Part shown: positions 15,176 through 34,383 of the stretch, piece by piece
Layout of the letters: each line of letters opens with the position of its first letter
Position numbering within the stretch: the first letter of the stretch is position 1
NCBI GenBank assembly: GCA_017448965.1
Contig: JAFSKK010000034.1
Coordinates: 1 to 59,569, forward strand
DNA from: Bacteroidaceae bacterium
GTDB lineage: Bacteria > Bacteroidota > Bacteroidia > Bacteroidales > Bacteroidaceae
Direction: 5' to 3'
DNA: 59,569 nucleotides
Position numbers and translations under genes: made by a program
Notes under the pieces: model-generated
Database searches by the model: none
What the model saw: the letters and a program-made list of their open reading frames with translations, nothing else
What the model was told of the DNA's origin: nothing

Positions 15176-16237
15176 TCACTCCAGCAGTTCTGCAAGTTTT
15201 GCATGCAAATCTTCATCTCTAAGGTCACGTGCCACAATCTTGCCCTGCGGGTCGATAAGCAGGTTGTCGGGGATGGCGTTAATCTTATAGACCTTGGTGA
15301 CCAATGACTCCCATGCTTTCAACTCGGAGAGATGCGTCCACGGCATGTTCAGGCTGGCGATGGCTTTCACCCAAGGTTCTTTCTGCCCGTCCAACGAGAT
15401 GCCGACGATTTCAAGACCTTTTGTGTGAAACTTCTCGTATGCCGCCACCACATTGGGCATCTCTCTGCGACAAGGACCACACCACGATGCCTAGAAGTCA
15501 ACCAACAGCCAATGCCCGCCACCGACGTATTCACTCAGTTTGTGGGCATTTCCCAACGTGTCCACCATCTCGAAGTCGGTGAACTGCTGACCGATGAAGG
15601 CATCCTTTGTTTCCTTGTCAGCGGCTTTCTGTTCTTCAGTTCTGCCCGTTGTCACAACAACTGTTGCCGTAGCCATCCGCTTCAGCCCCTTCTCATATTG
15701 CTTGGCGTATGGATGCCCAGCATAAACGGGCTTCTCTTCCAGCATGCTGAGAAGTCCTTTGCCTCCAAATGCCCACTGACCTTCTATGATGAGTGCAGCA
15801 GGAAGCAACGTTCCTCTTTCTTCCTCAAACATCTGCTTCGTCATCTTATACTTATAATCCGGATAATAGTGGCTCGGCAGGCCCGTGATTTCTTTGTTGT
15901 AGTAAGCCAGCCGCTCGTTCAGCGGAGAACCTTTCAGTGTGCTGTCGTTCATGTTGACGCTGATGGTCTTGCCGTCGTTGAAGAACAGCGTTCGCCAACT
16001 TTGCCAGTTGTCCTTGTCGAACGTGATGCCAAAGATGGCATCCTTATCGGCCTGACCTTTGAAGGCGAACTTGCCTTTGGCTACGATGGTACTGTCCACC
16101 GCTGTCGATGTCAGGCGGTCTTCCAGATACACCATCTTACCGTTTTCCTTACTCACACCTTTGACGGTGTACTTCACTTGTTGTGCCTGTGCCGACACAA
16201 CCAGCAGCAAGGCAAACATAAATAAAATCTTTTTCAT
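15176..16237 (-). pseudogene. TlpA/AhpC-type thioredoxin-fold protein interrupted by an amber codon
   Basis: One continuous frame of 353 codons is broken by a single TAG at 15491-15493. The first part has a signal peptide (MKKILFMFALLLVVSAQAQ) and a DUF4369-like N-terminal domain, ending HWLLVDF. After the stop the same frame continues ASWCGPCRREMPNVVAAYEKF, the thioredoxin CxxC active site and fold. The family consensus VDFWASWCGPC has Trp at the stop position, so a TGG to TAG change explains it. The rest is intact. It has its own promoter (16280-16287). Without read-through the product would lack the redox domain. A sequencing error is possible. Confidence 0.85.
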
Positions 16238-16279
16238 GACTTGTTTATTATTTAAAATTCAGTTTTAGGTTTACGTCGG

Positions 16280-16287
16280 CAAAGTTA
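16280..16287 (-). promoter_or_regulatory. -7 promoter box for the amber-interrupted TlpA gene
   Basis: TAACTTTG on the minus strand, with a TTTGG -33 element 20 bp further upstream. The layout matches the promoter at 37491-37498. Confidence 0.75.
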
Positions 16288-16318
16288 CATCTTTTCGTGC
16301 TTTTCTTCCAAAAAATGG

Positions 16319-16379
16319 AGTTTGCAAATAGTTGACATTTACAAAACGACACAAGAAGTCGAATTTGCAAAAAGTTTGC
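16319..16379 (-). promoter_or_regulatory. Putative operator: two pairs of 11-bp-spaced direct repeats
   Basis: AGTTTGC/AGTTGAC at 16319 and 16330, and AATTTGC/AGTTTGC at 16362 and 16373. Members of each pair are 11 bp apart and the pairs 43 bp apart. The first repeat begins 32 bp beyond the -7 box, exactly as at 37530. The pattern resembles sites of LytTR-type regulators (inference). Confidence 0.6.
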
Positions 16380-16417
16380 AAAATTATCGTAAGAGTTTCA
16401 AAATGAGAAACATCCTC

Positions 16418-19273
16418 TCACTTTGTACAATCTTTCTTTTTCGGTTGTTTGTTGAACTTATACGATACACTCAGCATGGCATACCTTCCGAGGACGTTCT
16501 GCCAGGTCTCGGTGCGGCCGTAGGCGTTGACGGTGCGGGTGACGGCATCGAGCTGTTTCAGCAGGTCGTAGGCGGAGAGGCGCAGCAGCAGACGGTCGTT
16601 CATCAGTCCGCGAGAGAGCGAGGCGCCCACCACGAAGCGGTCGGTGTTCATCGACGTGTCGTTGTAGCCGCGACGGGTATAGACCTTGGCATCGGCGGCC
16701 AGCTCTATCTTCAGCGGCAGCAGGGTGTGGCCTTCCACTCCGTAGGTGATGTTGAAGAAGTGGAAGGGCTGGAAGCCCGCTTCGTCCGACGTGATGTGAG
16801 CATATTCGGTATTGGCTCCCACTTCGATGCGCGTATGCTTCTGCTCGTATGACACGTGGAGCGATGCCGACGGCATGAACGTGTTGACCGTGCGCTTGTG
16901 GTTGACGAACTCCGTGGAGGTGGAGTAAGTGGCCTGAGCCGTGGCGTTGGCGTAGAAGCGGCGTTTCTTCGTGAACGGCGTACGGTAGTTGACCATTCCG
17001 CTCACGGCATTGCGTCCGTGAATGTTCATCAGGCTCACGGTCTGGATGCCCGTCGCCGCGTCATACTCGATGGCACGGGCTATCTGGCGCGGTTGTACAG
17101 TAGCGGCGAGGGAGGCCTGGAACATCTTGCGAGAGCGGAAATCCATGTTGCGGTAGTAGAGCGAGACGTCGTGTGTCAGCATGCCCCGGATGTCGGCATT
17201 GCCGCCCAGACTGACGATGAGCGGGTTGGTGCTATCACTGTAGGGGATGAAGTCGGTCATGGCCGGGGCTTGCTGCTTCATGTCATACTCAAACTGGAAC
17301 AGCCACACGTTAGGCTTCTCATATCCGATGCGCAACTGTGGCTCGACAAAGGCAAACCGCTTGGTCAGGCAGGTGTCGATGACATCGCGCTCGTAGTCGA
17401 GCTGGTGGCGCTCCATCCGCAGCAAGGCATTGGCAGAGAGATTGAGCCTACGGCCAGACTTCAACTGGCGGAACAGGCTGAGCTTCAAGTTCGGTGTGCC
17501 TGTCAGGGTGCGCTGGGTGGAATGGTAGGAGTTGATGATATCGAGCGTCTGCAGCGTCTGGCTCACCGAGTCGCTCACCAAATAGAGCAAGCGGGGCGCA
17601 CGGTTGTACTTCATGTCGAGCGTGAACAACGGCGTGAGCGTGAGCATCCAGCCCGCCACATCGTTCCACGTCACGGGGCAATCGACGGCGAAAGTCCCGT
17701 TGGCTGTCCGCAGCGTCGTGGTTCCCTCTGTGTGGCGGCGGGCGTCGGGCGTCTGGTCTGACTGGTAGAAGCGCACGGTGTTGAGTTCGCCAGTCCGCGT
17801 GCGTCCGTCGGCGAAGTTCCCGCCGAGGCTGAAGTGGAGCACATCGCCTAACTCGGAAAGCTTGAACGAGGCGCTGGCATCCATGCCGCCCGTCCACAGA
17901 TGGCCGTTGAGATGCCGCTGGATGGCTTGCGTGGAAATGAGGTACGGCTGCTGTGAGAAGGGACGGTCGGACATGAAGAAAATACTGTCGATGACCGTGC
18001 CAAAGCGTTCGTCTATGGGATTGGAAAGCTCTGCCAGCCACGAGGCGGCATCCGAACGGTTATCGGTATATTCCACCTTCGGTTTCAGTGTCGCATGGAA
18101 ACCGCTGCCCGGTCGTTTCAGCTCCAGCGTGTGGCGCGTGACAACGTGCGTGGACTTCTTCTCGTCCCGTGAACGCAGTCGCGAGTAGGTGTCGCCAGTG
18201 GTCAGGAAGCGTTCAGACGACTGCCGCGTCTGTATGTCCTGACTGTTGTAGTCCACCGACAGCTCGCCCTCGTAGGTGAAACGGCGTTGGCGGTCGTCGA
18301 TGGTGTGCATCAGTCCTGCCGAGGTGTAGTCCGACGGCACGGTGAGGTTGTACTGGCTGCTCCACTGCCCCGACGTGCCGGGCGTGGAGGCATCGTTGGT
18401 GTTGTTGGAGTTGAGATAGGCCACCGAGCGCGTGTAGTTCGAGAAGCGCAGACCGAACAACTTGGCACGGTAGCGGCTGTCGGTGCCCATGCCCACGTCA
18501 GCATTCACCGACCAGCCAAACGAATAGATGCGCTTCAGACCCACGTCCATCACCAGCTCCTTCTCGCGGTTGTTCAGTCGCTGTATGCCCAGGGCCACGT
18601 CGCTGTCCGACTCGCGCCGATAGACCTTCACCTCATCAACCATATAGGCGGGCAGGTTGTCGAGCGCAATCTTGGGATTGCCACGGAAGAAGTTCCTGCC
18701 GTTGACGAGCAGGTTATCCACGAACTCGCCGTTCACATAGATGCGTCCGCCCTTCTGTTCGACACCCGGCAACTGGCGCACAAGGGCATCGAGCATCGAG
18801 CCGTTGGCCAGTTCAAAGGCATCGGCGTTATAGACAACGGTGTCGCCACGCATCACCATCTGAATCTTGGAGGCCGTCACCACCACCTCGCCCAGGTTTC
18901 TGCCCTCTATATAATCATCGGCAGTCGTCTTGGCGCACTTTCGTAGCTTCATAGGGTCGAGGGTGATACGTGGGCGGCGATGACGGCTGAAATTCAGTTT
19001 GGCACGACGCGACTGGGGCTGATAGCGCACGTGGGAGTAGCTGACGATGTAGTCGCCTCCTGCCGACAGGTCGATACGCCAGCCCCAGCCAGCGTTGTAG
19101 GTGCTCCCCACGACGCTGGTGCTGTCAGCATTCCAAACTTCCACCAAGCAGCTGTCAACAGCCTCGCCAGTGAAGCTGTCAACCACCGAGCCTGACAAAC
19201 GGAACATCTGCTGCTGTGCCGATGCCGTCAGTGTGGCAACGAGGGCAAGGATGAGGGTGATAAAGGTTTTCAT
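16418..19273 (-). CDS. Outer-membrane plug/beta-barrel protein (TonB-dependent-receptor-like)
   Basis: 951 residues. Signal peptide MKTFITLILALVATLTASAQ, a CarboxypepD_reg-like domain (about 25-115), then a plug-like segment (GEVVVTASKIQMVMRGDTVVYNADAF, SMLDALVRQLPGVEQKGGRIYVNGEFVDNLLVNG, about 128-200), then a beta barrel of the OMP_b-brl_3 type. The unusual RGDTVVYNA linker is shared with the 1009-residue protein at 26543-29572. No canonical TonB box is obvious. Last but one gene of the GLPGLI cluster, 4 bp downstream of the 868-residue barrel gene. A role in transport or surface signalling is inferred; the substrate is unknown. Confidence 0.85.
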   Translation of the reverse strand: MKTFITLILALVATLTASAQQQMFRLSGSVVDSFTGEAVDSCLVEVWNADSTSVVGSTYNAGWGWRIDLSAGGDYIVSYSHVRYQPQSRRAKLNFSRHRRPRITLDPMKLRKCAKTTADDYIEGRNLGEVVVTASKIQMVMRGDTVVYNADAFELANGSMLDALVRQLPGVEQKGGRIYVNGEFVDNLLVNGRNFFRGNPKIALDNLPAYMVDEVKVYRRESDSDVALGIQRLNNREKELVMDVGLKRIYSFGWSVNADVGMGTDSRYRAKLFGLRFSNYTRSVAYLNSNNTNDASTPGTSGQWSSQYNLTVPSDYTSAGLMHTIDDRQRRFTYEGELSVDYNSQDIQTRQSSERFLTTGDTYSRLRSRDEKKSTHVVTRHTLELKRPGSGFHATLKPKVEYTDNRSDAASWLAELSNPIDERFGTVIDSIFFMSDRPFSQQPYLISTQAIQRHLNGHLWTGGMDASASFKLSELGDVLHFSLGGNFADGRTRTGELNTVRFYQSDQTPDARRHTEGTTTLRTANGTFAVDCPVTWNDVAGWMLTLTPLFTLDMKYNRAPRLLYLVSDSVSQTLQTLDIINSYHSTQRTLTGTPNLKLSLFRQLKSGRRLNLSANALLRMERHQLDYERDVIDTCLTKRFAFVEPQLRIGYEKPNVWLFQFEYDMKQQAPAMTDFIPYSDSTNPLIVSLGGNADIRGMLTHDVSLYYRNMDFRSRKMFQASLAATVQPRQIARAIEYDAATGIQTVSLMNIHGRNAVSGMVNYRTPFTKKRRFYANATAQATYSTSTEFVNHKRTVNTFMPSASLHVSYEQKHTRIEVGANTEYAHITSDEAGFQPFHFFNITYGVEGHTLLPLKIELAADAKVYTRRGYNDTSMNTDRFVVGASLSRGLMNDRLLLRLSAYDLLKQLDAVTRTVNAYGRTETWQNVLGRYAMLSVSYKFNKQPKKKDCTK

Positions 19274-19277
19274 TTTC

Positions 19278-21884
19278 TTACAATTTGAATGTCATTCTGA
19301 ACATACTGGTGCGACCGCAGAGACCATAGTCGTAGGTGTAGGTGTTGATGCCGTCGAAGAGGGTGTAAGCATAGTGGCGCTGATTCAGGAGGTTGGTGAG
19401 TTCAAGGCGGAAGACGCACTGCTTCCACTTGTACTGCGCGGAGGCGTTGAAGAGAGACATGTTCTTGTATTGGTTGGTGGTGATTTGGCGGCGCACATGG
19501 TCATAGTCCAAGGAGAGGTCGAGAGTGGCGATGGGGAACACATGGATGGCTCCGCTGTGGGTGAGGGAGGTCACGGTGTTTTTGCTGTCGGCGTAGCGCG
19601 ACTGCGACCCCCCGTAGTTGATGTCATATCTCAGTTCGAGCCAGGTGATGGGGGTGACGGCGGCATTGCCGTGGAGGTTGTAGTTGTTGGAGCGAATCTT
19701 GATGACGTCGGCAGCCCCTTCCGAAGAGGAAATCGCCTGCTCACTGTCGCCGAAACCATAACTGGCTTCCGCACCGAGTTTGGCGAAGAGCGAGGGGAAG
19801 CTTTTCGTACTATTGATAGTAAAGTTGGTGGAGCGGCTACGGGTGTCGCGAAGCAGAGCCGAGCTGCTGATGTCAACACCGTTGACACTCTGCGAGTAGA
19901 GTGTGTTGCGCTTGCCCTCCGAATGAGCGGCGGCAAGACTCAACGTGAAATACTGCATGGGCAGCTGCCACTTCCAGTCGCCTGACGTATGCCACGTGTT
20001 CGACTCACCAATGATGCCCGACGAGGTGCGCACCGTACGATAGCCCACCTGCATCGGTTCCGTCAGCAGCGTCATCATGTCACCAATCTGCGTCGTGTAG
20101 CCCGTCGAGAACTGCAGTTTGCTGTTGGCAGAGAAGGTGTAGTTGATGCCCATCGATGGATTGAGCACGGGCTTGGTATAATTCAGCTTATTATAATACA
20201 GTCCCTTTAAAGCGGCACCGAGGCCAGCACTCAGATAGAAGCGGCGGTTGCGCGAATGAATCTCGAAGCCAGGATTGGCACTGGGCGTGAATGACCAGCC
20301 TTGGATATGGTTAAAGTCCCCCGTTGCCACGCGCTCTGTCTCTAAATCGTCGTACATCGCATTGACTCTGACAGGCAAACTGAGGCGGAACGTCTTGCCA
20401 ATGGGGATATTGAACGAAGAACCAACGTTCACCGTGAGCGTTGATGACTGTGCCGTCTGGCCATAAGTCTGGCCGTCGTTGACGAACGACAGCCTTAACG
20501 TCGGCGTCCGCTTGAACGACACCGACGCATTGACATGTCGGTGAGTGCCCTTCTCCGTCTTGTCCATCCAGAACAGATCGTTGCCCACCTCAAACGATGA
20601 CGTCTTCCGTCGTTGCTCCACCAACGAACCGTTAGTGTTAACATCCCCTTCGTTCTGCTCAAACTTCCCTTTTAGAAAGAACGTTTCGCTGAGGTACACA
20701 CGGTCAGCGTTCTTCAGATAATTCATCGACAGTTTGGGCAGATGCACCTTCGAGAGCGGCGAGGTCTGTTCGCTCACGGTCACGTAATCGCCCGTGCCCG
20801 ACAGGTATGTGCTGCTCTGGCTGATGTCGTGCGTGGCACGGTGATAACTGTAGTCAGCATTCACCTTAAAAGTGGTGTTTGAGTCCAGTTTGCAGATGCC
20901 ATTGAGCGTTGCCATGCCATTGCGCTGGTAGAAGCACTCACCCTGCGGCGGTGCACCGCCATCGAAGCCTCCGAACAGGCTGGTGGCGGGTGTCGTCACG
21001 TCCGAGCCGCCAAAGTGGTCTATCATGTCAGTCCGTGCGAAGCTCTTGTAGTTGCTGCCCTTGAGCGAGCAGATGGTCTGGAAGTTGTCGGTGAACATCA
21101 TGCCGGTCACGCCCAGCAAGGCCTGCAACTCATCATTTCCTTCTTCCATATAGCCAGCACCCACTTCTTCCTGTCCGAACGGCTTGAACTTCGCCTTCTT
21201 CGACAGCTTGATGTTCATCGACACCTCGTTGCTCGGCACGTCGCGCTCCACCCGTCGGCTGTGGTGGTTACGCACTATCTCCACGTTCGTCACGTAGTCC
21301 GCCGGAATGTTCCTCGTGGCGAGGTTGTACTTGCCACCCAGCAGATCCAACCCCTCAATGTTGAACTGCGAGATGGGCGTACCCATGTAACTGATAGCAC
21401 CGCTCTTCGCCACGTCCACACCCGGCAACCGCTTCAGTCCATCCTCCAGCGTCACGTCTCCCTTGCCGAGGAACGAAGCGAGTTGGTGACTCAACGTGTC
21501 ACCTTTCTGCCACAACGGCTTCGCCTTCACCCTCACCTCCTTCAGCGAGATACTCTTCGGCGTGAGAATCATGTCCACCTTTCGTTGGAGGGGATTTGTA
21601 ATCCCCGACTGCTTTAGCGTCAACCTTTCCGACTCCTTCTCATAGCTGATATGGGTGAACTGTAGCGTCACCTCTCCGCTGGGCGCACTCTTCAGCTCCA
21701 GACTGTACTCGCCCTTTGCATTGCTGCTGGTGAACGCCAGCGTCTTCGTGCCGCTCACCAACTTCACAATCACATCACTCACGGGCTTGTTCTGCAGGTC
21801 AATTACCCGCCCCGTCACCTTCACCTGAGCCGATGCATGGACGGCCAGCGCTATATATAATATAATGTATAGGAGTCGTTTCAT
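19278..21884 (-). CDS. Outer-membrane plug/beta-barrel protein with carboxypeptidase-regulatory domain
   Basis: 868 residues. Signal peptide (about 1-19), CarboxypepD_reg-like domain (about 20-115, VTGRVIDLQNKPVSDVIVKLVSG), plug-like region (LKEVRVKAKPLWQKGDTLSHQLASF, then DGLKRLPGVDVAKSGAISYMG and NIEGLDLLGGKYN), followed by a beta barrel to a terminal GLCGRTSMFRMTFKL whose final residues suit outer-membrane insertion. It lies 6 bp downstream of the last GLPGLI gene and 4 bp upstream of the next barrel gene, so it is almost certainly co-transcribed with them. Confidence 0.85.
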   Translation of the reverse strand: MKRLLYIILYIALAVHASAQVKVTGRVIDLQNKPVSDVIVKLVSGTKTLAFTSSNAKGEYSLELKSAPSGEVTLQFTHISYEKESERLTLKQSGITNPLQRKVDMILTPKSISLKEVRVKAKPLWQKGDTLSHQLASFLGKGDVTLEDGLKRLPGVDVAKSGAISYMGTPISQFNIEGLDLLGGKYNLATRNIPADYVTNVEIVRNHHSRRVERDVPSNEVSMNIKLSKKAKFKPFGQEEVGAGYMEEGNDELQALLGVTGMMFTDNFQTICSLKGSNYKSFARTDMIDHFGGSDVTTPATSLFGGFDGGAPPQGECFYQRNGMATLNGICKLDSNTTFKVNADYSYHRATHDISQSSTYLSGTGDYVTVSEQTSPLSKVHLPKLSMNYLKNADRVYLSETFFLKGKFEQNEGDVNTNGSLVEQRRKTSSFEVGNDLFWMDKTEKGTHRHVNASVSFKRTPTLRLSFVNDGQTYGQTAQSSTLTVNVGSSFNIPIGKTFRLSLPVRVNAMYDDLETERVATGDFNHIQGWSFTPSANPGFEIHSRNRRFYLSAGLGAALKGLYYNKLNYTKPVLNPSMGINYTFSANSKLQFSTGYTTQIGDMMTLLTEPMQVGYRTVRTSSGIIGESNTWHTSGDWKWQLPMQYFTLSLAAAHSEGKRNTLYSQSVNGVDISSSALLRDTRSRSTNFTINSTKSFPSLFAKLGAEASYGFGDSEQAISSSEGAADVIKIRSNNYNLHGNAAVTPITWLELRYDINYGGSQSRYADSKNTVTSLTHSGAIHVFPIATLDLSLDYDHVRRQITTNQYKNMSLFNASAQYKWKQCVFRLELTNLLNQRHYAYTLFDGINTYTYDYGLCGRTSMFRMTFKL

Positions 21885-21890
21885 GGTTTT

Positions 21891-22775
21891 TTACTTCAGT
21901 TCCAGAGGTTGATACTGTCGCGGATTAGATACTAAGACTACACCAGCGACGCTACTTATGTTATCGCCAGCTGAGTTGAAACTATTCTCCACATAGCCGA
22001 AGGCCGTCTTAGGGTCTGGGGTATAGTAAGTGGGATTCTTCATATAGCGACTATTGCCCAGAACCTTCTTCTTGTATGCCAGAAATGCCGAGGCCTTCAT
22101 CTTCTGATAGTCCACTCGCTGGCTGGCGAACTTGCCATGACCGTCGGGGACAATCCAAGTGACGTATTGGGTAAAGATGATCGGCGTGTCCTCCTGATGA
22201 AAGCCATAAAGCGTAAAGGTGTGTATGCCTTTAGCGTCGGTAGCCTTCGTGATGAGACCCGGCAAGCCTCCCAACTTCCACGGCCCAATGCTGGCTGGCA
22301 CTTCCTCTGTATATAAGACATTCCAAGTCAGGCCATGATACTTTGCATAGGCCGACTGGCAAGCATAGTCGCAGATGCTGTCCTGCCCCTCCATCAGCTC
22401 CCACTCCTGCTTTTCCAATGGCTCGTCCGTCATGTAACGATACGGATAAAGCATCTCTTGCGTTGTGATTCTTCCTTCAGGGTAGTTCGTGAAGACCGTA
22501 CCTATATGCATCTGGGCAGCCAGATAGCCGTCCGCTATACGAGAGCCACCTTTCTTCTGCCTGTCATACTCTTCGTAAGGGAAACTCTTTGTGATGCCGC
22601 CCGATGTCTGCACTGCAATGTACATCGAGTCGGTTACCGGCTGACCGTCTGCATCTGTGGTTTTACATTCATAGCGATAAATCGCCGTAAACTTTGACAC
22701 ACCAATCGTGTCTCTCTGCGCCTGCGCTGCTATCGTCAGCACGAAGGCCATCATCATCACTAAAATCTTCTGCAT
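21891..22775 (-). CDS. GLPGLI family protein (fifth in the cluster)
   Basis: 294 residues. Signal peptide MQKILVMMMAFVLTIAAQAQ. The family motif is present as GPWKLGGLPGLITKA (about residue 165), followed by a beta-rich C-terminal part ending YQPLELK. GLPGLI (Porph_ging) proteins are exported proteins of unknown function found in Bacteroidetes. It begins 6 bp after the preceding gene and is followed 6 bp later by a barrel gene. The protein is co-transcribed with four paralogues. Confidence 0.88.
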   Translation of the reverse strand: MQKILVMMMAFVLTIAAQAQRDTIGVSKFTAIYRYECKTTDADGQPVTDSMYIAVQTSGGITKSFPYEEYDRQKKGGSRIADGYLAAQMHIGTVFTNYPEGRITTQEMLYPYRYMTDEPLEKQEWELMEGQDSICDYACQSAYAKYHGLTWNVLYTEEVPASIGPWKLGGLPGLITKATDAKGIHTFTLYGFHQEDTPIIFTQYVTWIVPDGHGKFASQRVDYQKMKASAFLAYKKKVLGNSRYMKNPTYYTPDPKTAFGYVENSFNSAGDNISSVAGVVLVSNPRQYQPLELK

Positions 22776-22781
22776 ATTGCT

Positions 22782-23651
22782 TTACTTCAACTCTAATGGT
22801 TGATACTTATTCACTTTCTTCGGGATAATCATGTCGGTGGCTACGACCGAGAGTTTTTCGTCAGCAGGAGGCTCTGGCCCGCCCGGCCACATTTCGATGA
22901 TGTTCAGGTGGTCGTAGGTTCCCTGCGGAATGTAGTAGTTCGGCTTCTGCACATACTGCTTGCTGCAATAGAGTTTGTTGCGGTGGGTAATAAACTTGTC
23001 GCGCTTGAGGGTCGTATAGCCGTTCTTGGAGAAGGGCTTGATGGGAGCCGTCCTTTGCATCAGTCCCGCACAGACGAACGAGAAGATTCTGTCCTTGTCT
23101 TCCGCTTTCAGAATCATGCCCGGCAATCCGCGCAGTTTCCATGGGCCGAAACTTGCCGCCACATCTTCCGAGTACCACGCTGTCCACGTCCTGCCCGCAT
23201 ACTTTCCGACGGCTTTCTGGCAGAGGTAGCCGCTCACGGTCAGCGTGTCGTCCGTCAACTGCCAACCGAAGTCGGGCAACGGTTCCGTATAGAAGTATCG
23301 GTTGGGCACCACCTTGTCAAACGAACTCACCTCGCCCTCGGGAGAGCCGATGAACAACACGGGCAAATTGTACTTCCGCGCATCCCACTCGCCGTACTGA
23401 TAGTCTCGGTTGCGCCACTCGCCGAAGTCCTCCATCATGGTGCGGTTATACTCCATGCACTTTGCCGCATGACTTCCTACCATTACAGCCAGTTGCACGG
23501 AATCCTTCACGGCATTCCCGTCCTTGTCTGTCGTGTTTGTCACAAAATCATAGACCACCACAAACTGGCATTGGTCTATACTGTCATTCGTCTGAGCCTG
23601 CGCTCCTATCGTCAGCGCCAAGGCCATCATTATCACTAAAATCTTCTGCAT
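22782..23651 (-). CDS. GLPGLI family protein (fourth in the cluster)
   Basis: 289 residues. Signal peptide MQKILVIMMALALTIGAQAQ. The motif is the variant GPWKLRGLPGMILKAEDKD (GLPGMI), preceded by the conserved TWTAWYSEDVAASFGPW block and a DDTLTVSGYLCQKA block that recurs in its neighbours. Ends KYQPLELK. The function is unknown. It differs from its neighbours in a Met at the fifth motif position and in a Pro/Gly-rich stretch (EMWPGGPEPPADEK) near the C-terminus. Confidence 0.88.
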   Translation of the reverse strand: MQKILVIMMALALTIGAQAQTNDSIDQCQFVVVYDFVTNTTDKDGNAVKDSVQLAVMVGSHAAKCMEYNRTMMEDFGEWRNRDYQYGEWDARKYNLPVLFIGSPEGEVSSFDKVVPNRYFYTEPLPDFGWQLTDDTLTVSGYLCQKAVGKYAGRTWTAWYSEDVAASFGPWKLRGLPGMILKAEDKDRIFSFVCAGLMQRTAPIKPFSKNGYTTLKRDKFITHRNKLYCSKQYVQKPNYYIPQGTYDHLNIIEMWPGGPEPPADEKLSVVATDMIIPKKVNKYQPLELK

Positions 23652-23675
23652 TGCTGTTAATGGTTTATGGGGTTA

Positions 23676-24533
23676 TTACTTTTCCAGTGGTTGATACATA
23701 TATGCCTTCATCAGCAGCGGGTGGCCATCGGCAAAGACAAGGTCTTGGCCGTTCATCTGGAATACGTACATGTGACGGATGCTTCCGCCCAGTGAGAGTT
23801 GGCCACCATTGAGGTCGGGCACGTGGAAGAAGGGATTCTTGGCATACTGGCGGTTGCCGTACACATCGTTACGGTGCTTCAGCAGTTTGGCGTATGCCAT
23901 GCGCTGCACGTCGGGATTCTTCTCCGGTGCAGTGATGGGCGATGCCTCCATCCGCAACTCCGCAAGACAGAACGTGTGCGCCTCACTCTCTGCCTTTACT
24001 ATCAAGCCCGGCAGACCGCGCAGTCGCCACGGCCCTGCCGACGATGGAATCTCATCGGTGTACCACACGCGCCACTTTACGCCTCGATGCGTCGCCGTGG
24101 CCTGTTGGCAGAGATAGCCGCTTACAGTCAGCGTGTCGTCGGTCAGTGTCCATGCGATGTCGGGGGTCGCCTCACTGCCTTCAAACTCATGTGGGAAAAT
24201 CCATTCGCGCACGGTCGTCTTGCCTAAAGGAAAGCCTGTCCACACTGTCGGCATGTGCATCACCGCCTCCTGGTGTTCTATCATTATCAAATCTTCCTCT
24301 TCTGCCGACTCGTTTGTCTTTTTGTAGGCCGAGCGAGGCATTGATTTCGTCACCGTCCGTCCCACCTGCACCACAACCTGCATGCTGTCCGTGACGGATG
24401 TTCCCTCGTCATCCTGCGTCCTGCATTCATAGTCATACACCGCTACAAACTGTGCGGTGTCTATTACTTCCGTTTGTCCCTGCGCTCCTATCGTCAGCAC
24501 CAAGGCCATTATTGTCATTAAAACCTTTTTCAT
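23676..24533 (-). CDS. GLPGLI family protein (third in the cluster)
   Basis: 285 residues from ATG 24533. The frame opens at a TTG 12 bp earlier, but the signal peptide begins MKKVLMTIMALVLTIGAQGQ, so the ATG is used, leaving 4 bp after the preceding stop. Motif GPWRLRGLPGLIVKAESEA. Ends MYQPLEK. The first ~35 codons are almost identical in DNA and protein to the next paralogue (both read TEVIDTAQFVA), pointing to recent duplication or gene conversion. Function unknown. Confidence 0.88.
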   Translation of the reverse strand: MKKVLMTIMALVLTIGAQGQTEVIDTAQFVAVYDYECRTQDDEGTSVTDSMQVVVQVGRTVTKSMPRSAYKKTNESAEEEDLIMIEHQEAVMHMPTVWTGFPLGKTTVREWIFPHEFEGSEATPDIAWTLTDDTLTVSGYLCQQATATHRGVKWRVWYTDEIPSSAGPWRLRGLPGLIVKAESEAHTFCLAELRMEASPITAPEKNPDVQRMAYAKLLKHRNDVYGNRQYAKNPFFHVPDLNGGQLSLGGSIRHMYVFQMNGQDLVFADGHPLLMKAYMYQPLEK

Positions 24534-24537
24534 CCTT

Positions 24538-25359
24538 CTATTCAAGTTCTAAAGGTTGATATACATGGCTCTTCTGTGGAATCATCATGTGGGAGTTCAT
24601 GCCCACATAGTAGAGGGTGCCATTGAGGTTGACTTCGGCCAACATATCCGCCTCTTTGGGCACATAGTAGTTCGGCTCTTTCGGGTAGCGAGGATTACCA
24701 AGTGTCTTTTGCTTGAACTTCATCAGTTTCTGGCGGCTCAGTTTCTGATAGTCAGGACGTTCTGTGTAGTCAATGCTTTTCACCTCGTTCTTCGTTTCGT
24801 AGAGCGTGAAGCAGTGGATTCCTTCAGCATCTTCGACCTTCACGATCAGCCCCGGCAGTCCGCGCAACTTCCAAGGACCAGCCGACGAGGGCACCTCCTC
24901 TGTGTACCAAACCTCCCACCGCTTGCCATACAAGTTGCCCATGGCACGATGGCAAAGCAGTCCGCTAATGGTCAACGTGTCGTCGCCGAGTGTCCAGTCC
25001 ACCTTCGCCAGCGGCTCATGCGTCTCATAGCGGTAGGGATAGATGGGTTCGACGGTCACAACCTCCGCCTTCTCCACATTGGTCAGCACGTTTTGGTGGT
25101 GCATGATGAATGCGTTTCTCATCTCTTCACTTGCCCGACCGTCCTTGTTGTAGGATAGTACGGTGGTGCAATACGTGGCACGGGTGCCCACCAGCAGAGC
25201 CAGCCGTATCGAGTCCGTGACGTTCTGTCCTTCTTCATCCTGCGTCCGAATGGAATAATTGTAGAAAGCCACAAACTGCGCGGTGTCAATTACTTCCGTT
25301 TGCCCCTGTGTTGCTATCGTCAGCACCAAGGCCATCATTGTCATTAAAACCTTTTTCAT
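24538..25359 (-). CDS. GLPGLI family protein (second in the cluster)
   Basis: 273 residues, the shortest of the five. Signal peptide MKKVLMTMMALVLTIATQGQ. Motif GPWKLRGLPGLIVKVEDAEG with the preceding WEVWYTEEVPSSAGPW block. Ends VYQPLELE. It starts 5 bp after its upstream neighbour. Function unknown. Confidence 0.88.
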   Translation of the reverse strand: MKKVLMTMMALVLTIATQGQTEVIDTAQFVAFYNYSIRTQDEEGQNVTDSIRLALLVGTRATYCTTVLSYNKDGRASEEMRNAFIMHHQNVLTNVEKAEVVTVEPIYPYRYETHEPLAKVDWTLGDDTLTISGLLCHRAMGNLYGKRWEVWYTEEVPSSAGPWKLRGLPGLIVKVEDAEGIHCFTLYETKNEVKSIDYTERPDYQKLSRQKLMKFKQKTLGNPRYPKEPNYYVPKEADMLAEVNLNGTLYYVGMNSHMMIPQKSHVYQPLELE

Positions 25360-25364
25360 TTGTC

Positions 25365-26267
25365 TTACTTCAGTTCCAACGGTTGATACACGTGCGCCTC
25401 ATTCATCTTCAATACGCCATTAACAATACAGAAAACCTCATCGCCAATCTGGCAGAAAATCTCATCAACACTCAGGGCATCATGGTTTGGCATATAATAT
25501 GTCGGTTGCTTAGGATAGAGCCTGTTGCCAAAGGTCTTGATACGGTTCCTGATGAGTTTCTCTTCTGGAATCTTCTTCGTGATGGCATTGTGCTCATAAT
25601 AGATGGGGGTAACGATGGGGTTGAGCTGCCCAAGTGTGAAACGGTGGATGCCGCCGTCGCTCACGGCATCGAGAATCAGCCCAGGCAATCCACAGAGTTT
25701 CCAAGGCCCAGCCGACGTGGGGATGTCTTCAGCGTAGCGCACCGTCCACGTCCGTCCGTGCAATTCGCCAGTAGCCGTTTTGCACAGATAGCCGCAGACG
25801 GTCATCGTGTCCTCGCAAAGTGTCCAACCGATGGACTTTCGTTCTTCACGTGTCTCGTAGATGGTGGGAATAATGGCATCGCGCACGGTCACTTGACCCT
25901 CGGGATAACCTGTCCACACCTCGGGCATAAAGCAGTACGATTCTCCTTTAAAATTGGGAAGCTCTTCGCCCGTCATATAGTCGTAGCCTTCCGTGTCCTC
26001 ACGAAACTTGCGATAGGGAAAGCAGCGCGTGCAATGTTGCCCCACTTGCACGCACAGCTTCATTCTGTCCGTCACCGCCTTGCCGTCCGCATCCTGCGTC
26101 TGACATTCATAGTCATACACAGCCACCAGGCTTGACACGTCAATGCTGTCCTGATGAATCTTGGCTGCAATCATTGCTGCCATCATAGCATCCAAGCCAT
26201 CATCTTGCGCCTGTGCCGCCCCTGCCAACACAAGCGAAAAGATCAGTAAAAGAATTTTCTTGTTCAT
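25365..26267 (-). CDS. GLPGLI family protein (first in the cluster)
   Basis: 300 residues and the most divergent copy. Signal peptide MNKKILLLIFSLVLAGAAQAQ followed by an extra ~20-residue spacer (DDGLDAMMAAMIAAKIHQDS). Motif GPWKLCGLPGLILDAVSDG. Ends VYQPLELK. As the promoter-proximal gene, with a TAACTTTG box 30 bp upstream, it should begin the transcript for the five GLPGLI genes and the two barrels. Function unknown. Confidence 0.88.
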   Translation of the reverse strand: MNKKILLLIFSLVLAGAAQAQDDGLDAMMAAMIAAKIHQDSIDVSSLVAVYDYECQTQDADGKAVTDRMKLCVQVGQHCTRCFPYRKFREDTEGYDYMTGEELPNFKGESYCFMPEVWTGYPEGQVTVRDAIIPTIYETREERKSIGWTLCEDTMTVCGYLCKTATGELHGRTWTVRYAEDIPTSAGPWKLCGLPGLILDAVSDGGIHRFTLGQLNPIVTPIYYEHNAITKKIPEEKLIRNRIKTFGNRLYPKQPTYYMPNHDALSVDEIFCQIGDEVFCIVNGVLKMNEAHVYQPLELK

Positions 26268-26296
26268 AGTTATTTAACATTTTAGATTTTATATCG

Positions 26297-26304
26297 CAAA
26301 GTTA
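26297..26304 (-). promoter_or_regulatory. -7 promoter box for the GLPGLI operon
   Basis: TAACTTTG followed by C on the minus strand, 30 bp before the start codon at 26267. Next to it on the upstream side is the inverted repeat ATCTAA-agtc-TTAGAT (26305-26320), and further upstream TTAGATATT occurs twice with 21-bp spacing (26378 and 26399), all candidate regulator sites. Confidence 0.7.
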
Positions 26305-26451
26305 ATCTAAAGTCTTAGATAGAACTAAACGGAACATCAAGAAAATGAACCTGCCGCGAAAAGTTTAACTTCTTTTGTTAGATATTCTGAAAGATTTATT
26401 AGATATTAAGTTTTGCCGGATGAGTGTTCTTACACCTGCTAAGTTTTGAAG

Positions 26452-26487
26452 ATGCTCCCCACTCGCATCCCTGCGGATGGGGAGCAT
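26452..26487. repeat. Hairpin in the gap between the STN barrel gene and the GLPGLI operon
   Basis: ATGCTCCCCA (26452-26461) pairs with TGGGGAGCAT (26478-26487), with an inner CGCA/TGCG stem. No T tract follows on the minus strand, so it is not a clear intrinsic terminator. It may mark an RNA end or be a dispersed palindrome. Confidence 0.6.
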
Positions 26488-26542
26488 GTGTACACATTTG
26501 TTTAACTGATCTAAAATTACCATCATTCTTGTTTCTTTCGCG

Positions 26543-29500
26543 TTAGTGACCTGCGGTCTTCTTCGGGTTCCTGTTGAAGTGATACACCATGTGCAGCATG
26601 ACGTAGTGTGGCAAGGAGCGGTACCAAGTGACGGTGCGGCCCTGGGCATTCACGGAATACTGGGTGGATGAAAGCTGGTGGAGGAGATCAAAGGCTTCGA
26701 TGCGGGCGATGAGCTTGCCCTTGAAGAAGGGCTGGCTGACGGATGCGTTCAGCACGAAGTCGTCGGTGTTCAATTCGCTGCTGCCATAGCCGCGACGGGA
26801 GTACATGTTGCCGTCAGCTGAGAGCGTGGTGTTCAGGCGTGGCAGGGTATAGCGGGCGGAGAGTCCGTATTGGAAGTCGGTGGCGTTGAGCGTTTCGAAG
26901 TCGTACATCTTTCCCTCGGAGTGCCGCCAGCGGATGTCGCCCGTGGCGCGGATGTTCAGCGTACCTTTATTATATTGTATGTAGGCCCCGTCGTGCAGGG
27001 TCAGAGTGTTGACCACGTTCTCCTCGCTCGCCGTCATACCCGTGAGCATGGCGTGGTCGATGGAGTGATGATAGCCTGCATCGGCATTGGTCTGCCACGA
27101 CCAGTAGCGGTTCTTGTCGATGGTGCGGCTGAAGTCGAACTTGGCATTCAGGCGGTATGCCCCGCTGACGTTCATGGGCTTGTAGGTATAGACGCCGCTT
27201 GCAGGGTCGTAGGTCGCCGACTGCGCCGTCTGCCGGTGGTAAAGGTCTGCCGAGGTGCCTACATGCCATTGCTGCTGGTTCTTTCCAGCCTTGTTCGAAT
27301 AGTCTATGCCGAAGTTGGAGGTGACGAAACTCTTCAGGTCGGGGTTGCCCAGCTTGACGACGAGCGGCTGGCTGTCGTCGCGATAGGTGATGCGGTCGGA
27401 AAGATTGGCAGCACTGCGCTTGTGGCTGGCATGTACCCGGAAATCATGCTTGCCGCTTTCCGAGGCATGTCTGAACGATGCCGAGGTATTCACAAACAGC
27501 GTGTTCTGTCGTGCCAGCGTATCGAGGCGACCGCGCTGATAGTCGAGCGACTCGTGGCGCATGGGGACACTGATGCCCACGCTCCAGCGCTGGTAGTTGA
27601 TGGTGAACGGACTGTTGGGACCCATCTTGTACTTCCCCTTGCCCGAGAACGAGATGCCGACGGTATTCTCCACCACGTTCGTCCGGCTGTCGTATGAGTT
27701 GATGAAGTCCGTAATGGCCGTCAGCGCGTCTATCTGAGAGGCCAGCAGCAACGTGTCGGGATGGTATAGATAATCGTGGGCATCGATGCGAAAGAAGTAC
27801 ACGCTTTCGCCCAAGCGCATGTCCACGCCCTTGAACAGCTGCATGCCGTAGCCCAACGATGCGATGCCCCAAGTCGTGCGGTTGCTGATGTCGTCCACGT
27901 TGTGCTGGGTGGTCTGCTGCGGGGTCATGTATTGCCGTGTGCTGTATCTCATGGCCGATTCCGATTCGTTCTCGTTGTGTTCCGCCTTGACATAGAAGTC
28001 GATATGCTTCTGGTTCTTGCCCACGTTGAACGCGCCCTGCGCCTCCACGTTTCCGCTCCATGCCTTTCCCTCGTTGAAGCCACGGTTGCGCTGCGAAGCC
28101 GTCAGGCTGTCAGTCCATTGGTCGAACATGGAACTGAACGAGCCGTGATTCTTGGAGTATCTGAAATCAGATTCCACAAGGAGCCAAAGGGGCTTGGTCA
28201 GCGTGAACGCATCGTGCGCATGCCATGTCCTGCTGCCCGTGCGGTTGCTGCTTTCGGTCAGCGACGTGGGCGTTAGCCCTTGCAGAAACTGTTCATAGCG
28301 GCTCCGGCTCTCGCTAATGTCTGTGGTCGAGGTGTACGAGGCCGTCAGGTTGTTCTTCACCCTGTCCTCTTTGGCATGATAGTCCATTTCTCCAGCAATG
28401 CTTCTGGTCGTGAGCAGGTTCTTGGGCATCGTGGCAGGTGTCCAGTGACCTGATTCTCCGATGTGGCGCGTCTCGTTCACATTGTTCACGTTGCCCAGCA
28501 GCGTGAAGCGGTAATGGTCGCTGAAGCCGAGCAGGAAGCCACGACCAAGCCATCTGTCCTCCGTGCCCACGGCTCCCTCCACATTGGCGATGTAGCCGCG
28601 CTGGTACTCCTGCTTCAGGTTCACGTCCATCACAAACTTCTTCGGATCCACGTCATAACCCAGCGCCCTGCTCTTGTCCGACTGCTTTTCATAGACCTTG
28701 ATGTTCTGCACGGTATAGTAAGGCAGATTCTCCAGCAGCACCTGCTTGTTTCCCCTCATGAACGACCGCGAACCGAGCAGCAACTCGTCCACCTTGCGGC
28801 CGTTGACGAAAATCTCGCCCGCCTCGTTCATCGTCACGCCCGGCATCTGGCGGATGAGGTCATCGAGCATGGAGCCTTCAGGCAGTTTGAACGCGGTGGC
28901 ATCGTAGATGAGCGTGTCGCCATGATAGAACATCTTGATTTTCGTGGCGGTCACCACCACTTCCTTCAACTGCACGGAGGCTACTTTCCGCATCAGCAGG
29001 GTGGGCACGTCCACAGGACTCTCGGCGGTGCTCACTCGTTGCCACACGTCGGCATAGCCCTCCAACTGCGCCCGCACCAGCAGGGTCTTGGCATCGGTCT
29101 GAATCGATACGGGGAAATAGGCATACTTGAGCGCATCGCCCTGAAGCACTGGCATCACCTCGACCGAGTCAATGAGCACGGTGCTGTCGGCACGGCAGAC
29201 GGTCACCCTGGCATCGAGCAGGGGCTTCTTCAGGAAAGCATCCTTCACGTCCATTCTCAACTCGATGGTCCGCACTTTGGGAATCCGCTTCTTCATCTGC
29301 ACACTGATGAGGCGGTCGGTTTGCTTCACCTTCACGGGTAGCCCTTTACAAACGCGGCGCACGGCATCGGGCACGGAGAGGTTCTTCACCTTGGCAGACG
29401 TGCGCAGGTGGGCAAGGCTGTCGGAGAGGATGTCAATGGTGTAGTCGGACTGCTCACGGCTGAGGGTTTGCAAGGCATCCAGCAGAGGCGTGTCGTGGAA

Positions 29501-29572
29501 GTCGTGGGAGACGGTTTGGGCGTGGAGGCTCACCGACACGATGAGCAGCAGCAATATCAGCGGTCTCCTCAT
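26543..29572 (-). CDS. Outer-membrane receptor with N-terminal STN signalling domain
   Basis: 1009 residues. Signal peptide (about 1-18). An STN (secretin/TonB N-terminal) domain follows at about 20-92 (HDFHDTPLLDALQTLSREQ, VPDAVRRVCKGLPVKV), then a linker, a plug-like segment (KEVVVTATKIKMFYHGDTLIYDATAF, GSMLDDLIRQMPGVTMNEAGEIFVNG, about 203-275) and a large barrel. STN domains of receptors such as FecA contact a periplasmic anti-sigma factor. Here the gene follows the ECF sigma and anti-sigma genes with a 4-bp ATGA overlap, so it probably provides the input to that sigma factor. The ligand is unknown. Confidence 0.87.
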   Translation of the reverse strand: MRRPLILLLLIVSVSLHAQTVSHDFHDTPLLDALQTLSREQSDYTIDILSDSLAHLRTSAKVKNLSVPDAVRRVCKGLPVKVKQTDRLISVQMKKRIPKVRTIELRMDVKDAFLKKPLLDARVTVCRADSTVLIDSVEVMPVLQGDALKYAYFPVSIQTDAKTLLVRAQLEGYADVWQRVSTAESPVDVPTLLMRKVASVQLKEVVVTATKIKMFYHGDTLIYDATAFKLPEGSMLDDLIRQMPGVTMNEAGEIFVNGRKVDELLLGSRSFMRGNKQVLLENLPYYTVQNIKVYEKQSDKSRALGYDVDPKKFVMDVNLKQEYQRGYIANVEGAVGTEDRWLGRGFLLGFSDHYRFTLLGNVNNVNETRHIGESGHWTPATMPKNLLTTRSIAGEMDYHAKEDRVKNNLTASYTSTTDISESRSRYEQFLQGLTPTSLTESSNRTGSRTWHAHDAFTLTKPLWLLVESDFRYSKNHGSFSSMFDQWTDSLTASQRNRGFNEGKAWSGNVEAQGAFNVGKNQKHIDFYVKAEHNENESESAMRYSTRQYMTPQQTTQHNVDDISNRTTWGIASLGYGMQLFKGVDMRLGESVYFFRIDAHDYLYHPDTLLLASQIDALTAITDFINSYDSRTNVVENTVGISFSGKGKYKMGPNSPFTINYQRWSVGISVPMRHESLDYQRGRLDTLARQNTLFVNTSASFRHASESGKHDFRVHASHKRSAANLSDRITYRDDSQPLVVKLGNPDLKSFVTSNFGIDYSNKAGKNQQQWHVGTSADLYHRQTAQSATYDPASGVYTYKPMNVSGAYRLNAKFDFSRTIDKNRYWSWQTNADAGYHHSIDHAMLTGMTASEENVVNTLTLHDGAYIQYNKGTLNIRATGDIRWRHSEGKMYDFETLNATDFQYGLSARYTLPRLNTTLSADGNMYSRRGYGSSELNTDDFVLNASVSQPFFKGKLIARIEAFDLLHQLSSTQYSVNAQGRTVTWYRSLPHYVMLHMVYHFNRNPKKTAGH

Positions 29573-30126
29573 GGCTGGTCCTCCTCTTCGTTAGTCTGTA
29601 TCACAAAGATGGTGTCGTTCTGCAAGAAGAGGCTCAGCCCATCAAAAGCGTTAAGGCGGTCAAGCAAGTCGGCAAGAGGCGCGTCGGGCTGCCACGTCAT
29701 GATGAGCGTCATGCGGCGCGGTGCCTCGTCGCGGAAGGTGACAGTCTTTTGGTAGTGGGCAGCAACCACGGTGAGGATGCTGTCAAGCGTCACGTTGTCG
29801 AAACAGACAGGAGAGGTTGGTTCTGTTGTGAGCGACTGCACCTCTGTCGAGCCGGGGGCTTGCCGCTTCATGCTGACAAGACGGATGGCGGCAAAGATGA
29901 TGCCTGCCATGAGCATGACTCCTGCAAACATGGCGGCTATCCTGAGCCATCGATGTGCGGATGTTTTGCCACTGCTGTGGGTGGCTTCAAAGCGTTGCCA
30001 CGCCGCCTGGGTGTCTGGCTCGCGGTCGAGGTCGGCCATCATGGCTTCTAACTGCCCGTCCGCATAGTTCTCCGGGTGTTCCTGCATGTCGAGGAACAAC
30101 CGCTTGGTGTCGTCTAAGTGCATCAT
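29569..30126 (-). CDS. Compact FecR-like anti-sigma factor with DUF4974 domain
   Basis: 185 residues. A short N-terminal cytoplasmic region (about 1-58) could bind sigma, followed by one membrane helix (about 60-82, IAAMFAGVMLMAGIIFAAIRLV). The periplasmic C-terminal domain (about 105-180, FDNVTLDSILTVVAAHYQKTVTFRDE, PLADLLDRLNAFDGLSLFLQNDTIFVI) matches DUF4974. The FecR beta-domain normally between helix and DUF4974 is missing; FecR-type proteins are usually ~300 residues or more. It overlaps the sigma gene upstream and the STN receptor gene downstream by 4 bp each, which implies coupled translation. Start could be either of two adjacent ATGs (30126 or 30123). Confidence 0.82.
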   Translation of the reverse strand: MMHLDDTKRLFLDMQEHPENYADGQLEAMMADLDREPDTQAAWQRFEATHSSGKTSAHRWLRIAAMFAGVMLMAGIIFAAIRLVSMKRQAPGSTEVQSLTTEPTSPVCFDNVTLDSILTVVAAHYQKTVTFRDEAPRRMTLIMTWQPDAPLADLLDRLNAFDGLSLFLQNDTIFVIQTNEEEDQP

Positions 30127-30611
30127 AACTTCTGTGGGTTAAATTGTTTTTTAATCGCCCGGATGGTGTGCGACAGATGTTTCCAGACAGCCACACGGCT
30201 GATGCCTTCGGCTGCAGCAATCTCTTCGTAACTGCACCCCTGGGTGAAGCGCAGGTGGAAGATGCGCTGTTCTTGCTCGGACAGATGACTCACCACAAAC
30301 TCCACGATGTCGGTCATGCGTTCGTCCTGTGTGTCGGCATCGCCCGACAGCACATCGGCTGTGTGGACCTCGCGGGCATCTCTTTTCACCTGTTCATGCC
30401 GCAACCGTTTCAGACACTGGTTGCGGACACTGGTCAGCAAGTAGCCCTCTTCCGTGCCTGGCAGCAGCACCGTCCGCCCACGGAGCAGGTGGGCAAAGAT
30501 GTCGCTGACCACATCTTCGCTCTCCTGCTCGTCGCAGAGGAGGGTGCGTGCCACCCTCAACATCTTGGCGTAGTGCTGCATGAACAGCCGCTGAATTTCC
30601 ATCTTTTCCAT
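30123..30611 (-). CDS. ECF-family RNA polymerase sigma factor
   Basis: 162 residues from ATG 30611; the frame extends 18 bp upstream only to a TTG. Region sigma-2 (about 5-70: HYAKMLRVARTLLCDEQESEDVVSDIFAHLLRG) and region sigma-4 (about 105-160: LSEQEQRIFHLRFTQGCSYEEIAAAEGISRVAVWKHLSHTIRAIKK) are both present, the minimal ECF layout. Followed with a 4-bp overlap by its likely anti-sigma factor and then by an STN receptor, the FecI-FecR-FecA order. Three 23-bp-period repeats lie 70-130 bp upstream. No clear TAnnTTTG box is seen, which would suit autoregulation (inference). Confidence 0.93.
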   Translation of the reverse strand: MEKMEIQRLFMQHYAKMLRVARTLLCDEQESEDVVSDIFAHLLRGRTVLLPGTEEGYLLTSVRNQCLKRLRHEQVKRDAREVHTADVLSGDADTQDERMTDIVEFVVSHLSEQEQRIFHLRFTQGCSYEEIAAAEGISRVAVWKHLSHTIRAIKKQFNPQKL

Positions 30612-30681
30612 CACGTTGTTTTCTTTCAATACCCTTCAGACAAGGAAAACGCTAACCTCTAAGGAAAAAAAGTGGGGAAAT

Positions 30682-34375: not shown

Positions 34376-34383
34376 GTGTTTTC

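Follow-up and report, generated by a model that had tools for sequence, protein, structure and literature searches.

The five tandem GLPGLI genes of a Bacteroidaceae bacterium (assembly GCA_017448965.1, contig JAFSKK010000034.1, a stretch of 59,569 nucleotides called the window here) probably belong to a GLPGLI-transporter module, in which GLPGLI proteins would exchange a ligand with an outer-membrane barrel, placed behind a surface-signalling front end that can be exchanged. The recurring partner of GLPGLI genes is the family of the 868-residue barrel (B868) that follows them, a conclusion well supported by gene neighbourhoods and not by structure. An initial annotation, made from the letters of the window, had proposed an envelope module under surface-signalling control, with GLPGLI proteins as possible partners or cargo of the barrels. 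That interpretation is partly supported, and half right: surface signalling stands, partnership with one barrel family is well supported, and the sigma factor is at most a putative regulator of the GLPGLI genes.

Every gene described there was found, all on the minus strand and spaced as annotated (Table 1). Genes for an extracytoplasmic function (ECF) sigma factor, a compact anti-sigma factor and a barrel receptor overlap by 4 bp at each junction, and the five GLPGLI genes (GLP1–GLP5) follow, separated by 5, 4, 24 and 6 bp if GLP3 starts at the ATG at 24533. All five pass the TIGR01200 cut-off (50 bits; 108–138 bits), and all except GLP5 pass the Pfam PF09697 gathering cut-off, so that the family name holds for five of five by the first model and for four of five by the second. 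Two barrel genes do come after the GLPGLI genes, encoding 868 and 951 residues, but the 1009-residue barrel lies before them. The genome to which the window belongs, as contig C52, comprises 3.0 Mb in 74 contigs (85.6% complete) and has eight GLPGLI genes in total, five of them at this locus.

Neighbourhoods were fetched and annotated with profiles built in this analysis; the loci were picked from GLPGLI matches (the stronger ones in the family and phylum), with repeats removed, and are not random samples. When the genus was searched with the B868 alignment, the matches listed comprised 36 full-length copies (811–1156 bits), fragments or broken copies (147–647 bits) and general TonB-type receptors (at most 122 bits). 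Counted by eye, 32 of the 36 full-length barrels adjoin a GLPGLI gene within ~1.1 kb, and the remaining four (G013:C58, G002:C40, G023:C114 and G023:C36) all lie less than 1 kb from a contig end; the 36 include two copies of equal score, G013:C88 and C94, that are likely copies of each other. Among clusters with at least 3.5 kb fetched on both sides, a same-strand B868-type barrel was found within 2.5 kb of the GLPGLI genes in 15/17 cases in the genus, 28/30 in the family, 9/11 on named contigs and 25/31 in the phylum.

A separate phylum-wide barrel search, which is less biased than loci chosen by their GLPGLI genes, was scored per genome (up to three barrel and nine GLPGLI candidates). Among 296 sampled genomes, 81 had a barrel match at E ≤ 1e-30, 79 of them together with GLPGLI, while 15 had GLPGLI only and 200 had neither (Fisher p ~1e-53, which is overstated because the sampled genomes are related). 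This threshold was chosen after the genus results and admits a few general receptors, so we also give a stricter count: all 41 genomes besides the window genome with a barrel match of at least 164 bits have GLPGLI (p ~1e-24), and at least 46 of the 57 matches at this level have a GLPGLI match within 3.5 kb. Distances between barrels tended to follow those between their nearest GLPGLI proteins (r = 0.80 for 114 pairs and r = 0.80 for 29 genus pairs, neither reached in any of 2000 permutations; r = 0.68 for 16 within-genome pairs).

In our models, B868 has the plug and large-barrel fold by which a TonB-dependent transporter is recognised. A fused, one-chain GLP5–B868 model, which is mostly barrel, matched TonB-dependent transporters in Foldseek at E 1e-15 to 4e-14 with probability 1.00 (50 best matches), including FpvA, Cir and FecA, at template modelling (TM) scores of 0.34–0.50 by target. 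Pfam Plug and TonB_dep_Rec did not match B868, in which only CarbopepD_reg-type domains exceed the cut-off. A conserved LKEVxVKA segment ahead of the plug is a candidate TonB box of the family. GLP2 is predicted to be a half-barrel (predicted local distance difference test, pLDDT, 92.9; predicted TM score, pTM, 0.88) like the bowl domain of PNGF-II and, more weakly, like LolA. Its top Foldseek match was PNGF-II (E 1.1e-9, TM-score 0.46 by query), followed by LolA3 (E 4.8e-5) and then, with falling confidence, by other LolA, VioE, MucB, LolB and ependymin-type bowls; the LolA, VioE, MucB and LolB matches span E 4.8e-5 to 4.8e-2, the best LolA entries at probability 0.99–1.00 and the others lower. 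PNGF-II was also matched by a sequence profile of GLPGLI (E 2.4e-6), as was 7zgn (E 1.8e-3), an entry that bears the title 'Glpgli family protein'.

Several results weigh against a GLPGLI-transporter module with LolA-like bowls. The E ≤ 1e-30 threshold is not clean, and general receptors in GLPGLI-free genus genomes pass it (e.g. G028, G034, G035, G036). No B868 barrel lies near 12 of 89 well-flanked GLPGLI clusters, and 15 of the 94 phylum genomes with GLPGLI have no barrel match at that threshold (with up to three candidates scored per genome). Agreement between the barrel and GLPGLI trees comes in part from shared ancestry. The TM-scores of GLP2 to LolA are low (0.26–0.37 by query), and an hhalign comparison with 22 LolA_2 proteins of the same genus aligned the signal peptide alone, so the likeness to LolA is one of fold only. 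The fused GLP5–B868 model (pLDDT 83.7, pTM 0.60, junction of low confidence) shows no complex and counts neither for nor against; partnership, as first annotated, is supported for the B868 family by neighbourhood and not by a confident predicted complex. Finally, the conserved C-terminal tail of GLPGLI proteins is ordered in the GLP2 model and need not be a docking signal.

This tail ([YF]xPLE[LK][EK]) is carried by 303 of 446 GLPGLI open reading frames (ORFs) as against 3 of 1664 others, repeat fetches included (74/90, 51/88, 115/135 and 1/48 by group with repeats removed). The three others are a barrel-GLPGLI read-through, an apparent GLPGLI fragment and an apparent chance match. We had considered the tail as a barrel-docking tag and dropped the idea: it is missing from almost every GLPGLI protein that was fetched from beyond the family and it is ordered in the model, so it is kept as a feature and not as a mechanism.

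At E ≤ 0.001, GLPGLI was matched in 20 of 45 genus genomes (and in none of the other 25), in 52 of 121 sampled family genomes and in 94 of 296 sampled phylum genomes; clusters hold 1 to 9 copies. Why five paralogues are retained had been the question of the initial annotation. Mutual identity among the five is 34–43%, and distinct proteins from elsewhere have one of the classes as their best match, with an identity of at least 55% (GLP1 19, GLP2 32, GLP3 35, GLP4 18, GLP5 35; by best BLAST match with no tree, excluding a near-identical twin). With ratios of nonsynonymous to synonymous divergence (dN/dS) of 0.07–0.37, the five are, as judged from sequence comparison, old orthologue classes kept separately under purifying selection and not recent copies. 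On four contigs (L153, L162, L163 and L164, the same as L078), GLP3- and GLP4-type domains are fused in one ORF and the second signal peptide is gone, which suggests that proteins of these two classes can function next to each other; these fusions may trace to a single event. A double GLPGLI ORF in L077 was set aside as it retains an internal signal peptide, and a barrel-GLPGLI fusion ORF in L076 for the same feature and a truncated barrel. By simple patterns, 332 of 356 distinct GLPGLI proteins have a type-I-like cleavage site and 3 a lipobox-like site.

Other genes were seen in these clusters. Signal-peptide proteins of ~270 residues, apparently a second family (grouped by eye; Table 1), stand in or beside GLPGLI clusters; the one member scanned against Pfam, that of L139, gave nothing better than E 0.17. 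The nearest relative of the window locus (L037 8173–9290; L058 from 3) has an apparent sixth GLPGLI gene, cut by contig ends, between GLP5 and the barrel. Proteins of 136–159 residues within the clusters of L046 (8736–9197), L049 (3714–4193) and L050 (from 11037) score weakly with the anti-sigma model (58–68 bits; a single-sequence model). GLPGLI genes have no near match among phage records. A literature search by the Pfam and TIGR names of GLPGLI found nothing, and the available excerpts of papers naming GLPGLI give no function for the family.

The surface-signalling set is supported on two grounds. The first is the receptor. Pfam listed no STN match for the 1009-residue protein (whole protein, E up to 0.001; first 116 residues, E up to 0.5, the best match there being FecR_C at E 0.035), so the STN domain annotated there lacks a profile match, but the extra domain is backed by the position of the GDT linker motif. 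We compared 29 distinct relatives of over 350 bits and over 850 residues, excluding lower scorers such as L114. All ten receptors encoded after an anti-sigma gene have the motif at residue 217–232. Of the 19 receptors not linked to such a gene, 14 have it at 137–153, one at 181 and one at 245, and three lack it. The motif comes ~78 residues later in the linked receptors than in those 14, and an extra domain of about that length therefore goes with the anti-sigma factor. This linker had been noted as shared by the 951- and 1009-residue barrels; it is not special to them, as the 868-residue barrel family has it too. The anti-sigma factor matches FecR_C at 22 bits (E 1.6e-4), slightly below the cut-off of 24.4, so its DUF4974 label falls a little short by profile, and it has a single hydrophobic stretch (read by eye).

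The second ground is joint divergence. Compared with the nearest relative (L037/L058), synonymous divergence (dS) is 0.36–0.47 in three flanking genes, 0.87 in the TlpA gene, 0.30 in the sigma gene, 0.23 in B868 and 0.04–0.10 in GLP1–5. The anti-sigma factors are identical over residues 1–60, 87% identical over 61–105 and 74% over 106–185, and the receptors are 42–81% identical along their length, returning to 98% in the last 64 residues. Compared with L040 the pattern is reversed: the anti-sigma factors are 80% identical over residues 1–105 and 95% over 106–185, the receptors 88–99%, and the four shared GLPGLI genes stand at dS 0.50–1.16. In both comparisons the step inside the anti-sigma factor departs from a uniform distribution of differences (p 3.6e-6 and 0.007, with boundaries set after seeing the data). 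From 29850 to 26735, a mosaic block made up of the anti-sigma periplasmic domain and the receptor stands out against both L037 and L040, and GLP1–5 are closer to L037 than the flanking genes are. Recombination of a matched pair, anti-sigma periplasmic domain plus receptor, is the likeliest reading of these alignments; both relatives are metagenome-assembled genomes (MAGs) and an assembly chimaera is possible, yet reading frames and 4-bp overlaps are intact. Such joint change from species to species supports signalling of the FecA/FecR type, and it agrees with the Fox system, where the C-terminal domain of the anti-sigma factor is described as binding the signalling domain of the receptor (PMC11637429).

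The front end varies between loci. An ECF sigma/anti-sigma pair was detected near 8 of 38 clusters in the genus, 1 of 39 in the family, 3 of 50 on named contigs and 0 of 34 in the phylum (12/161), and BlaI with an M56 protein near 6, 7, 21 and 0 clusters of the same sets (34/161); four clusters have both kinds, and 42 of 161 have either. Each regulator model was built on one sequence only, and distant regulators were therefore missed. The pairs of L056, L057, L060 and L068 are of a second type, with no STN receptor. All 43 M56 proteins, from 42 loci, contain an M56 domain and 38 a TonB_C domain; neither BlaI nor M56 was found at 13–40 kb of the window. Co-occurrence in other genomes, whose absence would have counted against the initial annotation, is strong for a barrel, whereas the sigma/anti-sigma pair accompanies a minority of clusters, which answers that test by half. 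Neither the sigma set nor the 951-residue barrel is constant, and the sigma set is an exchangeable front end. The available excerpts of literature on M56, BlaI and TonB hold nothing on this GLPGLI module.

Upstream of the GLPGLI genes is a −7-like box, TAACTTTG, with an inverted repeat just ahead of it. The ordinary Bacteroidota −7 consensus is TAnnTTTG, which we take the box to resemble, and this likeness argues mildly against direct ECF control. The core of the repeat, TCTAA-N4-TTAGA, is retained in L037 and L040, which both have the same sigma set: in L037 box and repeat recur, and in L040 one half-site end is altered and the box reads TATCTTTG. The core precedes 3 of 21 GLPGLI genes that follow an STN/951-type barrel (window, L037 and L040), 0 of 35 that follow M56 and 0 of 334 others, as well as 2 of 43 BlaI genes and 2 of 1382 genes of other kinds; these counts rule it out as a general GLPGLI element. 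A BlaI-like palindrome (TACA-n-TGTA) showed no clear pattern (1/43 before BlaI, 3/33 before GLPGLI after M56, 24/1809 elsewhere).

The sigma set and the GLPGLI-barrel genes could also be mere neighbours, the sigma factor controlling its own receptor only and the GLPGLI genes being read from a housekeeping promoter; the inverted repeat might then bind a repressor. The ordinary look of the −7 box agrees with this, as does the higher frequency of BlaI with M56 than of the ECF/anti-sigma pair. However, a GLPGLI gene is found no more than 400 bp from 13 of the 19 receptor relatives not linked to an anti-sigma gene, which makes this receptor family part of the GLPGLI neighbourhood, and the anti-sigma-linked receptors came from nine loci that had been fetched for their GLPGLI genes. 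We give mere neighbourhood somewhat less than an even chance; it is compatible with a GLPGLI-transporter module.

In that module, the core would be 1–9 GLPGLI proteins with signal peptides and one B868-family outer-membrane barrel of TonB-transporter fold; in the window, an ECF sigma/anti-sigma/STN-type receptor front end would stand before it. Each GLPGLI bowl would act in the periplasm, holding a hydrophobic or elongated ligand that it passes to, or receives from, the B868 barrel, and several distinct bowls would be retained for different ligands or for joint action in one complex. The STN-type receptor would sense a surface ligand and free the sigma factor through the anti-sigma factor; the GLPGLI genes may be among the targets of the sigma factor or may not. 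The computed parts of this explanation are adjacency, phylum co-occurrence, separate paralogue ancestry, the half-barrel prediction, the alternative regulators and the joint anti-sigma/receptor divergence. A bolder version, which we hold tentatively and think doubtful as a whole, makes GLPGLI proteins phylum-wide LolA-like periplasmic carriers for a distinct class of TonB-type barrel, with sets of paralogous bowls serving one barrel and interchangeable sensors coupled to the outer membrane (STN receptor/anti-sigma/sigma, or TonB_C-bearing M56 protease/BlaI repressor).

GLPGLI proteins might instead be cargo or secreted effectors that leave through the barrel, and the paralogues would then be variant forms of something displayed on the cell or released from it. 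The signal peptides, with lipobox-like sites in few proteins (3/356), the variable copy number (1 to 9) and a conserved tail that could be a sorting signal are as this would have it; however, low dN/dS and long-lived orthologue classes are not what diversification of displayed proteins would look like, the model shows an ordered tail, and TonB-type barrels are known as importers. We consider export unlikely. Improbable too is that they are signalling adaptors like RseB/MucB, of LolA-like fold, which bind barrel or lipid and tune the anti-sigma factor or M56 protease with no cargo moved: MucB does appear in the fold search as a weak match (rank 44, probability 0.66) and regulators of either kind stand near 42 of 161 clusters, but none was detected at the 34 phylum-set clusters (by single-sequence models of low sensitivity), and GLP1–5 remain close to their counterparts in the nearest relative, from which the receptor and the anti-sigma periplasmic domain have diverged strongly.

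GLPGLI is widespread in the sampled Bacteroidota genomes, and a transporter-type partner together with a predicted half-barrel makes its function testable by pull-down and ligand binding. Joint divergence of the receptor and the anti-sigma periplasmic domain with GLP1–5 left alike is a ready case of input change in surface signalling. To judge by the pairs of BlaI and TonB_C-bearing M56 protein found near the module, envelope sensors of another kind may be able to take the same role.

Table 1. Features of the GLPGLI locus (positions in the window) and apparent members of a second family at other loci (locus:positions)
Feature	Position	Strand	Remark
ECF sigma factor	30123..30611	-	Pfam Sigma70_r2, r4_2 and r4 all over cut-off
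Compact anti-sigma factor	29569..30126	-	FecR_C/DUF4974-like C-terminal domain, residues 108-173; N-terminal part short
1009-residue TonB-receptor-like barrel, presumed transducer	26543..29572	-	Extra N-terminal STN-like domain, residues ~20-95
Inverted repeat ATCTAA-GACT-TTAGAT	26305..26320	-	Adjoins the box on its upstream side
-7-like box TAACTTTG of the GLPGLI genes	26297..26304	-	By sequence
GLP1, GLPGLI paralogue 1	25365..26267	-	TIGR01200 108.2 bits
GLP2, GLPGLI paralogue 2	24538..25359	-	TIGR01200 114 bits; structure predicted
GLP3, GLPGLI paralogue 3	23676..24533	-	TIGR01200 123.1 bits
GLP4, GLPGLI paralogue 4	22782..23651	-	TIGR01200 138 bits
GLP5, GLPGLI paralogue 5	21891..22775	-	TIGR01200 115.4 bits; PF09697 20.5 bits, below cut-off 25
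B868, 868-residue barrel	19278..21884	-	CarbopepD_reg_2 domain, plug, TonB-transporter-fold barrel
951-residue OMP_b-brl_3 barrel	16418..19273	-	Pfam
DUF4369-TlpA-type thiol-redox gene	15176..16237	-	Split by in-frame TAG
Apparent ~270-residue family members	L139:8312-9121, L053:7956-8771, L142:5443-6279, L175:8236-9099, L179:37-846, L185:9151-9957, L223:10451-11257		

The core of the module excludes the last two genes of the series. The 951-residue barrel, annotated as part of the unit, is absent after B868 in both nearest relatives (L058 and L040) and is probably an accessory or insertion. The TlpA-type gene, taken as a working part, has its stop at 15493–15491, just ahead of the thioredoxin active-site stretch; the nearest relative has an intact copy, and the TAG may be a true lesion or a MAG error. 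The sigma ORF spans 30123–30629, and the ATG at 30611 is the start used in the initial annotation; the protein scores 64 bits with TIGR02937 (above the cut-off of 42.9) and 100 bits with TIGR02985 (below 126.4). Upstream, on the same strand as the sigma gene, three TlpA-type thiol-redox genes stand in tandem at 31222–36180, and in L040 two related TlpA-type genes are likewise upstream of the sigma gene. Differing 23-bp tandem repeats of ~3 copies each lie upstream of the sigma gene (30682–30748) and between two of the TlpA-type genes (33235–33302). Rfam at gathering scores gave zero matches in 13000–36500.

The front end resembles FecI-FecR-FecA, as exemplified by the available text on the Fox system (PMC11637429), in gene order, overlaps, the extra N-terminal receptor domain and an anti-sigma C-terminal domain that diverges with the receptor. 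It differs in that the anti-sigma factor is compact, the receptor has no Pfam STN match and GLPGLI genes come next. The BlaI and M56 genes of module relatives recall BlaR1/BlaI, but the M56 proteins mostly bear TonB_C and lie near a transporter, and the searched part of the window has none.

SusCD/RagAB share with the module a barrel of TonB-transporter fold, a CarboxypepD-type N-terminal domain and an adjoining accessory gene. Here, in contrast, the accessory is a GLPGLI protein with no lipobox, and a Pfam scan of ten locus proteins found no SusD-type protein.

The half-barrel fold of LolA, LolB, VioE and MucB is approached by the Foldseek matches of the GLP2 model, whereas sequence homology to the same-genus LolA_2 was not detected, TM-scores are low and binding of lipid or lipoprotein by GLPGLI is putative. 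LolA2 and LolB2 of the flexirubin locus are suggested, in the available excerpt, to serve a single outer-membrane pathway (PMC11885536). The N-terminal bowl-like domain of PNGF-II and a Bacteroides PNGase (4r4z, 4r4x, 7zgn) resembles GLPGLI in fold and weakly in sequence; the excerpt at hand describes it as a unique structure of unknown function (PMC9522356). In PNGF-II, however, the bowl is one domain of a glycan-removing enzyme, while GLPGLI proteins stand alone, in several copies, beside a barrel.

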